Below are positions 1-44,963 of a stretch of 64,000 nt of DNA, piece by piece. A program made the position numbers and the translations under genes. The number at the start of each line of letters is the position of its first letter. Positions within the stretch are counted from its first letter, which is position 1. The notes beneath the pieces are model-generated. The model was not told the origin of the DNA, did no database searches, and saw only the letters and a list, made by a program, of their open reading frames with translations. The DNA is from Candidatus Nitrosotenuis aquarius (GTDB lineage Archaea > Thermoproteota > Nitrososphaeria > Nitrososphaerales > Nitrosopumilaceae). The DNA is taken from positions 584,328 through 648,327 of the forward strand of contig NZ_CP024808.1 of assembly GCF_002787055.1 (NCBI RefSeq), read 5' to 3'.

Positions 1-524
1 TCCATTATTTCGCCTGTGTGCGTCTTGATGAGATCATATTTTGCTTCAGAGATTTCGTTGCTCTTGAATTGGACTTTGGCATCAAACAACAATGTCTTTA
101 CAGTCTTTAGCTGTGCACCTAGCTCTTCGAGACGTGAGCCTAGCGCTGATGAAATCTGCTTTTCAGCTTCTTCCAGCGATATCAGTTTGGACTTGTACTT
201 TTCGTGTATGATTTCTGCGTCTTCCTTCATTTCGTCGTTTTCAGAGACAATGTCAATTAGCGCCTTTAGTCGCCTGATTGTCAGTCCCTTTTCTCTGAGG
301 AATCGTTGTGCGTCGAGTCTCCATTTCGGTATGTAGATTACGACATCGCCCTGAACTACTAGTTGTTCAAATGGGACCTGTACTAGTCCTTGCAGACCAC
401 AGTCAACTCCCACAGTCTGTATGGAGCCATCAATATCGGTTATAGTACCGATGACTTTGCCCATCTGGGTGCCATACATGTCTTTGACTTGCTTGCCGAT
501 AATCTCTACTTCGTCCTTGTTCAT
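1..524 (-). CDS. cdvA: Cell division protein CdvA, C-terminus cut off by window edge
   Basis: The N-terminal 174 residues are visible, starting at an ATG at 524. Residues 1-70 form a PRC-barrel-like beta domain (KQVKDMYGTQMGKVIGTITD, then VGVDCGLQGLVQVPFEQLVV), followed by a long charged helical region with coiled-coil character to the window edge. This order is that of CdvA, the membrane-associated protein of the archaeal Cdv (ESCRT-III-like) division machinery, which recruits CdvB through a C-terminal peptide not visible here. CdvB and CdvC are not adjacent in this window; in Thaumarchaeota the cdv genes are commonly scattered. A PRC-barrel protein of another role is the main alternative, but the PRC plus coiled-coil layout is quite specific. 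Confidence 0.82.
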   Translation of the reverse strand, partial: MNKDEVEIIGKQVKDMYGTQMGKVIGTITDIDGSIQTVGVDCGLQGLVQVPFEQLVVQGDVVIYIPKWRLDAQRFLREKGLTIRRLKALIDIVSENDEMKEDAEIIHEKYKSKLISLEEAEKQISSALGSRLEELGAQLKTVKTLLFDAKVQFKSNEISEAKYDLIKTHTGEIM

Positions 525-40977: not shown

Positions 40978-42066
40978 ATGCGGGTGATATTTCACATTGA
41001 CTTTGATTATTTTTTTGCCCAGTGCGAGGAGATTAGAAACCAAACACTCAAGACCAAGCCAGTCTGCGTTTGCATTTTCTCAGACAGGGGTGGGGACAGC
41101 GGTGCAATTGCCACTGCCAACTATATTGCAAGAAAATATGGAGTAAAGTCCGGCATGCCAATCAAGTTTGCAAAGGCAAGGCTAAGAGAAATTCCAGAAT
41201 CTGCATTTTTGCCTGCGGATTTTCCATATTATTCAGAGATTTCGCAAAAGGCAATGGAGATAATGAAGTCATATGCAGATGTATTCGAGTATGTAGGTCG
41301 CGATGAGGCATACTTGGATGTCACAAAAAGATCAGAAGGCAGCTTTGCCATTGCCACGCACTTGGCCCAGCAGCTAAAAAACCAGATTCGCGCCGAACTG
41401 AAAATGACTTGCACGGTTGGGATTTCTACCAACAAGCTTGTATCAAAGATTGCATCAGGATTTAGAAAGCCAGACGGACTAACTGTAGTAGAGCCGGAAA
41501 AGACAGAGTCGTTTTTGGCCCAGCTAAATGTAGGTGACATTCCAGGAATAGGCAAGGTGACTGGAGAAAAATTTGCAGAACTAAACATCAAGACAATCTC
41601 GGATCTGGCAAGGCTTGACGTATTTACCCTAAACAAGATGTTTGGCAAAAAAATTGCATCATACATGTACAATGCCGCCCGAGGAATCGACGATGACCCA
41701 GTGGCAGAGCGAGCGCCTGCTGTGCAGTATTCCAGGATCATAACGCTAAAGCAGGATTCAAAGGACTTGGCCTTTCTATCGGATGCACTGGATGAGATTT
41801 GCGCAGACCTGCACGAAACAATACTAAAGCACAGAAAAATGTTCAAGTCCGTTGGAATCCAGTTTGTCCAGTCTGATTTGTCCAACAAGACAAAATCAAG
41901 AATGCTCAAAAACCCAACATCAAGCCTGGATGAGCTCAAAAAGACTGCTGTTATTTTGCTCCAAGAAGCCCTAGCTGATCAGGACCAAAACGTGCGAAGG
42001 CTGGGCGTTAGAATATCAGAATTGTCCGACATTACTGGCCAAAGATCAATTGAGAATTTCTTCTAG
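40978..42066 (+). CDS. dinB: Y-family translesion DNA polymerase (Pol IV/Dpo4 type) with PIP box
   Basis: Polymerase of about 362 residues. Catalytic carboxylates are in HIDFDYFFAQCEE (Asp and aromatic gate) and GRDEAYLDVT (Asp-Glu, normally SxDEAYLD). Fingers: SGAIATANYIARKYGVKSGM. Thumb helix-hairpin-helix: VGDIPGIGKVTGEKFAELNI. The little finger follows, and the C-terminus GQRSIENFF is a PCNA-interacting (PIP) motif. ATG 40978 lies about 30 bases after GTAATAAG; an ATG three codons earlier (40969) is possible. It bypasses DNA lesions. Confidence 0.93.
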   Translation: MRVIFHIDFDYFFAQCEEIRNQTLKTKPVCVCIFSDRGGDSGAIATANYIARKYGVKSGMPIKFAKARLREIPESAFLPADFPYYSEISQKAMEIMKSYADVFEYVGRDEAYLDVTKRSEGSFAIATHLAQQLKNQIRAELKMTCTVGISTNKLVSKIASGFRKPDGLTVVEPEKTESFLAQLNVGDIPGIGKVTGEKFAELNIKTISDLARLDVFTLNKMFGKKIASYMYNAARGIDDDPVAERAPAVQYSRIITLKQDSKDLAFLSDALDEICADLHETILKHRKMFKSVGIQFVQSDLSNKTKSRMLKNPTSSLDELKKTAVILLQEALADQDQNVRRLGVRISELSDITGQRSIENFF

Positions 42067-42980
42067 GCTGCCATTTTTTTGATGCGCTTGGTCTCTATTG
42101 CAGTTACCGCAAACAGATACGCAAAGAGCCACGGCAGAAACATTATCTCGCCTGCGATTCCGTGAAATTCCTCAAACTCGACTGGATTTGTAGAGACCTT
42201 GAGGACAAACAGCGACAACGAGAATATCCTAATCATGTTGACAAAGATTGTTCCCGCAATTCCTATTGCAAAGTACATTGCCTTGCGCTTTGGGGCAATG
42301 TTCATCTTTAGCAAAAACGCCATCATTACCAAGGAATAGATGATGACCGAGTGCACACCAGCAGACGGCCAAAACACCTGCAGTGCCATGGAGCCATGCT
42401 CGCCTTTGAGAAACATCAGGTTATTTCGCGCAATCGCAGTTCCCAGATCAAAGAACTTGATTATCTCCACGTTTGCTTTTACCAAATACGGCACTATATA
42501 TTGTAATGGTCCTAGTGTGTCGTACGGGAAAAACGCGTCGAGTGAGAGAATAATTGCGCTGCCACACAGAAAAATCGGTCCTGCCGGCGCAATTCTAATC
42601 CATCTTTTGCCAAACAATATGGTAACGGCGGCAATTACAAATGCACCCATTATCACAAAGTCCCAAAGCCATGTCCAGGAATGAATCAGATTTACGTTAT
42701 AGTATTGGGCGCCATCCTGTATGTATTGCCTGAGGCCATGGTCAAGGGCTATCAAATACGCAAAGACTGCAGTTGCAAATGGAATTGTTGCTATGACTCG
42801 TTTTTGGGAAACTATGGTCTTGATTCCAATTAGCTCTGCCACAATGAATGCCATTGCAAAAAGCCAGCCTCCCCTTCCTTGGTTCCAGCTTAGTGAAAAC
42901 GAGTCAGGCTGATACGCCAGTGCAAACAGAACGGGGCTGATTATTATGATAATGGCAAATGTCAGAGATTTGTTTTGCAA
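42063..42980 (-). CDS. Archaeosortase/exosortase-family membrane protein, Ser at the Cys position
   Basis: A 305-residue protein with about eight membrane helices. The exosortase-type motif (E-x-C-x-G) reads QVFWPSAGVHSVIIY, so Ser206 replaces the catalytic Cys. Arg251 (NMIRIFSLSLFVL) and His273 (EEFHGIAGEIMF) are the other two active-site residues and are intact. Archaeosortases are transpeptidase-like processing enzymes for PEFG/PGF-type C-terminal signals on surface proteins; the thaumarchaeal one is believed to act on PEFG-CTERM proteins. I found no PEFG-type C-terminus among the secreted proteins of this window. Stop overlaps dinB stop by four bases. Confidence 0.8.
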   Translation of the reverse strand: MQNKSLTFAIIIIISPVLFALAYQPDSFSLSWNQGRGGWLFAMAFIVAELIGIKTIVSQKRVIATIPFATAVFAYLIALDHGLRQYIQDGAQYYNVNLIHSWTWLWDFVIMGAFVIAAVTILFGKRWIRIAPAGPIFLCGSAIILSLDAFFPYDTLGPLQYIVPYLVKANVEIIKFFDLGTAIARNNLMFLKGEHGSMALQVFWPSAGVHSVIIYSLVMMAFLLKMNIAPKRKAMYFAIGIAGTIFVNMIRIFSLSLFVLKVSTNPVEFEEFHGIAGEIMFLPWLFAYLFAVTAIETKRIKKMAA

Positions 42981-43015: not shown

Positions 43016-43561
43016 TTATTTCTTCTTTATAGTGAGCGTCTTTTGGATCTCATTCATCGAGCTGATGAATTTCTGTTTTGCCTCGTATTCGTTTGAGACC
43101 TTGACTATGACCTCAGTTGATGACAACAATACATCCTTGACAACTAGCGGTGCAGAAAGGCCCAACAGCTCTGATAGAAAATCAAAGAGGTTGTGGAACT
43201 TGGTTTGGTTCTTGTACTGATACATGACTCGCCCGTCCTTGAACACAGGTTTTGGATCAAGTGGGATTACCAGCTCTGGAGACGTCATGTCGTTGATGAA
43301 TTTTGCAGTGTCGGCTTTGATGGATGTGGACAGTTCCTCTTTTTTTGCCTCCAGATTTGCCTTGGTTTTTTCCAGGTTTGCCTGCTGGTCGTCATATTCT
43401 GTTCCAATCATTTTTGCAAATGCAGACTCTGTTGGCTTTTTGAGCGGGATTTCGTGCAGCTTCATGTTTACTATTTTGAGTTCGTCTTCTATTTGCGCAA
43501 GATATTTTCTATTTGCCTTGATCTGGCCGGCAAGTTCCTCAAGATAGGTAAAATCAGACAT
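43016..43561 (-). CDS. Coiled-coil protein in operon with artubulin
   Basis: A soluble protein of 181 residues. Residues 1-90 form a helical coiled coil (EELAGQIKANRKYLAQIEDE, QANLEKTKANLEAKKEELST). Residues 95-181 look alpha/beta (PELVIPLDPKPVFKDGRVMY, LFDFLSELLGLSAPLVVKDV, STEVIVKVSNEYEAKQKF). No transmembrane segment and no known domain. Its ATG is seven bases from the artubulin stop, so the two are translated from one message. A role as a regulator, cap or membrane-linking partner of the tubulin polymer is inference from context. Confidence 0.75.
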   Translation of the reverse strand: MSDFTYLEELAGQIKANRKYLAQIEDELKIVNMKLHEIPLKKPTESAFAKMIGTEYDDQQANLEKTKANLEAKKEELSTSIKADTAKFINDMTSPELVIPLDPKPVFKDGRVMYQYKNQTKFHNLFDFLSELLGLSAPLVVKDVLLSSTEVIVKVSNEYEAKQKFISSMNEIQKTLTIKKK

Positions 43562-43568
43562 GATACCC

Positions 43569-44963
43569 TCACTGGCTAAACTGGTGAACTACGTCCATTA
43601 GAGACTGTTTGAAATCTTCAGTGGTCAGGCCCCATCTGCCATATTCGTCCTTGTATGCATCCCAGGCTTCTTCTGCCTCTCGTGCAATCTCTAGCACCTT
43701 TGGTCCTACTGCCTTTGTGTTGACAAGAATTGTGATGTTTGCCTGTTCTTTGTCCAGGATTGGAATCTTGACAAATATCATCCTGGAATCCTCAATGTTA
43801 AACCTCTCCTTGATTATTCTCTTGAGCAGTTCGCGCTCTTTGATGTCAAATTCTCCTTTTACTTTAACCAGTGCACAGCAAGAGTCTTTTGGTCCGCCAT
43901 AGTTGCGAATGTCAGTCTCGTCAACATCAAACAATATTGCATCTTGTTTTTTGTTTAGATTCTCAATGATACTGTCCATGGTGTTGTGCTTGTTGCCAGT
44001 AATGGTGTTGAGATTCCACTGGTCTTCGTCTGGCAATACAGGTATGACCCACGGGATTGCAAACTTGGGTCTCTTTGTTGCAAGCCAGGTTCTGTAATTG
44101 GACATGTCCCATTCTGTTTCTCTTGCAAATGAGGAAATGAACATGGAGATTGCGTTTGCGGCAATTAGGTTCATGCCCTTGTAGTCCTTCCATCCGACTT
44201 CATGCTCCTTTGGCAGATCATCTATTATAGATGGAATCTTGTCCACTCGTTTTTCGTACTTGTGTGCCACCTCTCGCAGTCGCTTGTTTGAGAACAATAT
44301 GGAACAGTCGGAATATTTTATCTGGTATTCCAGATTCATCACAATGTTAATTGCAGCTGCCTCCAGTATGACTGGGTCCCAGCCGAATTCCGGCAACAGT
44401 CCCAGTGTCGCAATTGTTGCGTGTTCCTTGGTGTTGCTTCTAATAAATTCGATAAACGAGCATGCAAAAGAGCTGCCTGTTCCCCCGCCCATTGCAAATG
44501 GAACGGTGTAGCCTCGAACTTGTTCTGGCGATAATGCGGATAATTGTTTTCCAAAGTCCCATTTTTGTGTGACTTCGTTTTTGAATCTAGATCGTCCCTC
44601 TGCCCAGTTTCTTGCAGCGCCTCCGGCACCATGGATTACGTGCTTGTCGCGCAGTGCAAAAAGATCCGGATATGATTGTAAGATGAGATTTGCAGCCCTT
44701 GGGTCCAGGTCTACTAGCAATGCCCTAGGAATAAGCGGGGTTTCGCCACCCGTATATGCACCTGGGAATCGGAGTATGGTGCTTCCGTACCTTTTTAGGA
44801 TTCTGGACTCGTCCTTTGTGTCCTTGAGAACCGGCTTTAATGGGTCAGCTCCTACATCAAGCAGCAACCTACGGTAGGATTCTGCTCCAAGACCAATTCC
44901 ACAGTGACCAAAGCAGGTCATCAGAACTGGCGCTGGCGGTAGTGGGGCGCTTGCTTGTGCCAT
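43569..44963 (-). CDS. Artubulin: tubulin-family GTPase
   Basis: A 464-residue protein far closer to eukaryotic tubulin than to FtsZ. Nucleotide-contact loops in order: T1 FGHCGIGLGAE (19-28; tubulin GQCGNQIGA), PRALLVDLDP (79-88; tubulin PRAILVDLEP), GAGGAARNWAEG (112-123; tubulin GAGNNWAKGH), and the G-box AMGGGTGSSFA (157-167; tubulin GGGTGSG). The later part contains ETEWDMSNYRTWLATKRPKF where tubulin has the T7 loop. Artubulins have been described in some Thaumarchaeota (Nitrosoarchaeum). It should polymerise with GTP, possibly as a cytoskeletal filament. An AGTTAAAC box lies about 28 bases before the ATG. Confidence 0.88.
   Translation of the reverse strand: MAQASAPLPPAPVLMTCFGHCGIGLGAESYRRLLLDVGADPLKPVLKDTKDESRILKRYGSTILRFPGAYTGGETPLIPRALLVDLDPRAANLILQSYPDLFALRDKHVIHGAGGAARNWAEGRSRFKNEVTQKWDFGKQLSALSPEQVRGYTVPFAMGGGTGSSFACSFIEFIRSNTKEHATIATLGLLPEFGWDPVILEAAAINIVMNLEYQIKYSDCSILFSNKRLREVAHKYEKRVDKIPSIIDDLPKEHEVGWKDYKGMNLIAANAISMFISSFARETEWDMSNYRTWLATKRPKFAIPWVIPVLPDEDQWNLNTITGNKHNTMDSIIENLNKKQDAILFDVDETDIRNYGGPKDSCCALVKVKGEFDIKERELLKRIIKERFNIEDSRMIFVKIPILDKEQANITILVNTKAVGPKVLEIAREAEEAWDAYKDEYGRWGLTTEDFKQSLMDVVHQFSQ

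Follow-up and report, generated by a model that had tools for sequence, protein, structure and literature searches.

A tubulin-family gene of Candidatus Nitrosotenuis aquarius and the conserved partner gene directly downstream of it

We examined a 64,000-nucleotide stretch of Candidatus Nitrosotenuis aquarius (contig NZ_CP024808.1, positions 584,328 to 648,327; hereafter the window), in which an initial annotation made from the sequence alone had proposed a eukaryote-like tubulin, or artubulin. Directly behind this gene, on the same strand, lies a small gene that we call the partner. The features on which the analysis rests are as follows (window coordinates).

43569..44963, minus strand: artubulin, a tubulin-family GTPase of 464 aa with an ATG start (PF00091, PDB ranking, Foldseek, tree)
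44469..44489, minus strand: G-box (T4 loop) GGGTGSS, residues 159 to 165 (alignment with alpha-, beta-, and gamma-tubulin and FtsZ)
44082..44123, minus strand: T7 loop and start of H8, RETEWDMSNYRTWL, residues 281 to 294 (MAFFT alignment with PDB-checked tubulins)
43562..43568, minus strand: intergenic gap of 7 nt from the artubulin stop to the partner start (2 to 16 nt in all loci measured)
43016..43561, minus strand: partner gene, 181 aa, helical hairpin and alpha/beta C-terminal domain (adjacency, cooccurrence, AlphaFold2)
1-524, minus strand: CdvA, at the left edge of the window (PF18822, E 9.5e-20)

The artubulin reading frame does not arise by chance, since it scores 54.9 bits against the Pfam Tubulin GTPase model (PF00091; cutoff, 33), has homologues at 58 loci in other genomes, and evolves within the genus at a dN/dS of 0.013 to 0.029. 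PF00091 was also matched by all 23 members of a broader artubulin alignment (A3). Identity is 91 to 98% to other Nitrosotenuis copies and 77 to 79% over the full length to Nitrosarchaeum MAG copies, which makes the gene an orthologue of the Nitrosarchaeum artubulins. The tubulin motifs named in the initial annotation occur in order: FGHCGIGLG (residues 18 to 26), PRALLVDLDP (79 to 88), GAGGAARNWAEG (112 to 123), and GGGTGSS (159 to 165). A separate FtsZ-like gene (L001) is encoded elsewhere in this genome (1.697 Mb, one contig).

The initial annotation also held the protein to be nearer to tubulin than to FtsZ, and our analyses agree. Searched against the PDB, a profile of 40 artubulins matched the Asgard tubulins AtubB (E 6e-20) and AtubA, followed by gamma-tubulin (2e-13), alpha-tubulin (2e-12), and OdinTubulin (2e-11); the broader A3 profile gave the same picture (AtubB, E 5e-22; AtubA, E 2e-17). 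FtsZ and CetZ were absent from the best 60 PDB matches to these profiles, and no NCBIfam FtsZ or CetZ model matched the protein. In a tree of artubulins with a small sample of other sequences (alpha-, beta-, and gamma-tubulin, Heimdall AtubB, CetZ1/2, and two FtsZ), artubulins and tubulins formed a clade (support 100/99) in which artubulins were a separate long branch. The alpha, gamma, AtubB, and CetZ1/2 sequences match PDB records and the beta sequence agrees with PDB copies; the two FtsZ sequences are provisional. Groupings of artubulin with CetZ and with FtsZ were each rejected by the AU test (P = 0.008). The MAFFT alignment further revealed tubulin-only blocks in artubulin (PRALLVDL, NWA, and a C-terminal N-T-A-I).

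The fold search pointed the same way. The AlphaFold2 model of artubulin, built from a shallow alignment (A1), is poor (pLDDT 50.6); the top Foldseek matches to this low-confidence model were nevertheless all tubulins, over ~480 columns and nearly full length, and its order of helices and strands (H8-S7-H9-S8-H10-S9-S10-H11-H12) is tubulin-like. Pfam Tubulin_C matched neither the window protein nor the A3 members at E ≤ 1, although the H11-H12 sequence blocks align with those of tubulins. The long branch and the lack of a Tubulin_C match could be read as signs of an FtsZ or CetZ paralogue that merely resembles tubulin; we give this reading almost no credence, as the PDB ranking, the tree and AU test, the absence of NCBIfam matches, and the tubulin-only blocks speak against such an identity, which we reject. 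Taken together, the PDB ranking, the tree, and Foldseek set the gene next to the tubulins of eukaryotes and Asgard archaea. The gene is an artubulin, as first proposed, and belongs with tubulin where this family parts from FtsZ and CetZ. We claim no position within or beside the tubulins, because the branches are long and our sample is small; nor is the position settled by published trees, even with the much denser sampling of a study from 2026 (PMC13394414).

Mobile elements were searched as well. Neither the window artubulin nor its partner matched IMG/VR, and a plasmid search yielded no match. The A3 profile returned two IMG/VR contigs; the one that was read (L159) carries a phage gene with a chance match at AARNWAE, and a viral origin was rejected.

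Artubulins were named in 2012 by Yutin and Koonin from Nitrosarchaeum (PMC3349469), and that of Nitrosotenuis uzonensis (~79% identity) was reported in 2013 (PMC3835317). Because the family is thus already published, the window protein is one more member, without essential difference from either. Compared with the solved structures, its best profile matches are AtubA and AtubB, yet artubulin remains distinct as a branch of its own. With eukaryotic alpha-, beta-, and gamma-tubulin it has in common the GTP-site loops, the T7/H8 geometry, and the C-terminal H11-H12 blocks, but identity in fold alignments based on the low-confidence model is only 14 to 19%, and artubulin lacks an acidic tail. FtsZ and CetZ share the GTPase superfamily and the G-box but lack the PRALLVDLDP and NWAEG blocks. 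What is new relative to the published artubulins is a universal downstream partner, a wide distribution, and a fixed Asn at the catalytic position.

The GTP pocket appears to be intact. The GGGTG core, Asp85, Asn226, and Asn265 are invariant across A3, and GTP binding is predicted. In the T7/H8 segment, Glu284, Asp286, and Asn289 of artubulin align with Asn249, Asp251, and the catalytic Glu254 of alpha-tubulin, respectively. The acid at the Glu254 position is therefore absent, with Asn289 in all loci read but one, which has Ser. FtsZ has Asp at this position, and Heimdall AtubB keeps Glu. RETEWDMSNYRTWL is identical in 122 of the 124 loci that carry the segment, some of which are duplicates of one genome; RETEWDMSNYRTW was present in 122 loci, and two single-locus variants differed by one or two residues. 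Human microtubules carrying the E254N substitution do not hydrolyze GTP and are stable (PMC8764682). Given the fixed Asn in place of the catalytic Glu, together with the acid at a neighboring T7 position, artubulin is predicted to hydrolyze GTP slowly or by means of a rearranged acid. Asn289 alone leaves polymerization possible, since beta-tubulin (Lys) and gamma-tubulin (Gly), neither of which requires an acid there, also lack one.

The same segment bears on a reading in which artubulin does not polymerize at all and acts as a GTP-dependent switch or scaffold with the partner as its effector. Replacement of the catalytic Glu by Asn within an otherwise fixed motif would suit such a protein, as would a universal partner. 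However, the near invariance across the order of the whole RETEWDMSNYRTWL segment, which forms the longitudinal contact, suggests that a subunit-subunit interface has been kept, and the H11-H12 region is kept too; we consider the switch or scaffold reading doubtful.

The partner is the only neighbor kept with artubulin across nine lineages, the other neighbors being scrambled. It lies 2 to 16 nt downstream of artubulin at all 54 loci with downstream DNA (the remaining 4 of the 58 end at a contig edge) and directly behind artubulin in all far-relative loci checked, where partner identity falls to 25 to 34%. The 7-nt gap in the window suggests that the two genes form one likely operon. Across 250 genomes of the family, the partner was present in 72/72 artubulin-bearing genomes and intact in 0/178 artubulin-less ones, two of which retain degraded remnants (P = 3e-61 by Fisher's test, with no correction for kinship). 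A class-wide survey listed 89 matches, of which two weak ones (G310 and G328) are other tubulin-like genes; among the matches listed, the partner was found in 87/87 artubulin genomes. Within artubulin-bearing lineages, the link is exceptionless. Both genes are under purifying selection (dN/dS 0.013 to 0.054 for the two together, 0.03 to 0.05 for the partner), and the partner evolves faster than artubulin.

Several side observations were made at these loci. Two artubulin-partner pairs on different contigs occur in each of G298 (family f5; L123 and L124) and G035 (of the window genome's own family), reflecting either duplication or mixed bins. Among L013 to L060, artubulin apparently starts mostly with TTG in Nitrosotalea-like genomes and with ATG in Nitrosotenuis and Nitrosarchaeum. 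Just downstream of the partner in the window, on the same strand, a membrane protein (42063-42980, minus strand) with a subthreshold exosortase EpsH match (E 1.8e-5) is a possible archaeosortase.

The AlphaFold2 model of the partner is of high quality (pLDDT 92.3) and consists of a helical hairpin (residues 4 to 52 and 60 to 92) joined to a small C-terminal alpha/beta domain, whose last element is a helix. Assignment to a named family failed: sequence searches of Pfam, NCBIfam, PHROGs, and the PDB gave no credible match, and the PDB fold search nothing better than E 0.19. We found no published description of the partner in the artubulin literature within our scope, outside which most subscription journals lay. 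An unnamed conserved hypothetical protein appears among artubulin neighbors in a 2012 figure legend (PMC3349469), and a 2023 paper mentions coiled-coil neighbors of archaeal tubulin-like genes in general terms.

A broader partner profile detected homologues in two families of the order that lack artubulin, f2 and f3. Those of f2 (L131 to L136) are full length and lie near archaellum-like genes; those of f3 (L137 to L144, L147, and L148) are a short form, 130 to 158 aa in most loci, mostly near Rpr2 and other housekeeping genes. The artubulin profile detected no divergent tubulin beside these homologues. The partner fold is thus older than, or separable from, the link to artubulin; its origin or role may not depend on tubulin, and the orphan homologues possibly constitute a separate thaumarchaeal family. 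These homologues would also suit a partner that is a folding factor for artubulin, prefoldin- or cofactor-like and external to the final structure, as would its coiled-coil hairpin, its place immediately downstream of artubulin, and one weak prefoldin match (E 0.06) among 23 partner members. The PDB fold search, however, returned neither a prefoldin nor a tubulin cofactor, and we regard a folding factor as unlikely while giving it some weight.

The initial annotation had taken artubulins to be known from a few Thaumarchaeota only, a view that our surveys overturned. Artubulin is widespread, being present in 72 of 250 genomes and 9 of 22 genera of the family and, in a class-wide sample, in three further families of the order (f4, f5, and f9). 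A phylum-wide sample of 398 genomes gave no match outside the class. No amoA was detected in any tested f4 or f9 genome, some of which are incomplete drafts; the gene was present in f5 and in three family genomes used as controls. Traces of loss were also found. In L094 (Nitrosarchaeum-like), Snf7 is kept, artubulin is absent, and the partner is broken, and L093 holds a partner fragment riddled with stops; remnants such as L094 are joint losses of the two genes. Two Nitrosopumilus-like genomes retain an intact partner and only the C-terminal half of artubulin, the GTPase half being gone, in one from residue ~295 and in the other from residue ~230:

L091, 3819-4322 (G154): artubulin C-terminal half
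L092, 5424-6125, and L058, 10001-10702 (G149): artubulin C-terminal half

These halves represent either ongoing decay or a truncated functional protein. An old gene repeatedly lost fits the wide distribution, which extends to families where amoA was not detected, and the traces of loss better than does a recent, rare gain in a few genera.

Other tubulin-like genes were also encountered. In f6, L129 (3204-8773) carries a four-gene cluster with two tubulin-like proteins, one of 902 aa (Tubulin_2 and Tubulin matches) and one of 428 aa (Tubulin type); between them are encoded a protein of 313 aa and a zinc-ribbon protein of 198 aa. Alongside a divergent FtsZ/tubulin-family gene, the f3 genomes G297 and G301 have two extra ones that score strongly against PF00091 (E 1e-35 to 1e-39).

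The CdvA gene at the window edge bears out the observation that CdvA is encoded about 43 kb from artubulin, from which it had been argued that the polymer need not serve division. This argument is reasonable, and it is strengthened because adjacency to Snf7 (CdvB-like) is confined to the Nitrosarchaeum-like clade, one loose f9 case aside. The order Snf7-artubulin-partner occurs in Nitrosarchaeum-like genomes (L043 to L049 and L097 to L099), and on the f9 contig L146 a Snf7 gene is encoded on the opposite strand, no more than 3 kb from the partner. These arrangements would accord with the 2012 proposal that artubulin divides cells with ESCRT-III (Snf7/CdvB), the partner then being a Cdv-ring adaptor. 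Against this, no Snf7 was found within the fetched flanks of Nitrosotenuis, Nitrosotalea-like, f4, f5, or other f9 loci, and the Snf7-like gene found in the window genome is ~570 kb from artubulin. The N. uzonensis artubulin is likewise not near CdvB/Snf7 (PMC3835317); Snf7 adjacency is therefore a trait of the founding artubulins and does not define the family. Moreover, cell division in Nitrosopumilus uses Cdv (PMC3349469), and artubulin is missing from most genomes in the related genera. The flank search led us to reject Snf7/CdvB as a general partner outside one clade: the linkage from which a division role was proposed is specific to one genus-level clade, plus one loose case, and we judge a division role to be rather improbable.

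The reading that we favor, with moderate confidence, is that the locus is a two-gene module made up of a GTP-binding tubulin relative and a dedicated partner that controls its assembly, folding, or attachment. Its basis is that artubulin belongs to the tubulin family and has kept the residues of the GTP site, that the two genes stay in order, are inherited together and, to judge by remnants, have been lost together, and that both are under strong selection; from this we infer the following steps and any cellular role. Artubulin and its partner would probably be made from one transcript. Artubulin would bind GTP and assemble head to tail into protofilaments, and the partner may bind artubulin or the polymer and control assembly, folding, or attachment. 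GTP hydrolysis by the filament would be slow or would use a rearranged site, and filament turnover may therefore depend on the partner. Counted against the two-gene module are the f2/f3 partner homologues without artubulin, the low pLDDT of the artubulin model and its unmatched Tubulin_C, and the loss of the GTPase half beside an intact partner in two genomes. We attach a low probability to a bolder proposal: that artubulin is a tubulin with naturally impaired hydrolysis, its filaments being turned over by its operon partner, in a two-protein cytoskeleton that predates ammonia oxidation, differs from the microtubule, FtsZ, CetZ, and Cdv systems, and occurs in ammonia-oxidizing archaea and apparently nonnitrifying relatives.

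Artubulins have been under discussion as possible tubulin ancestors since 2012. A partner gene that follows artubulin in both inheritance and loss offers a direct experimental entry and the first concrete handle on its role, and the fixed Asn289 makes a sharp biochemical prediction. Together, a conserved two-gene module and an odd, fixed catalytic position make artubulin function testable.
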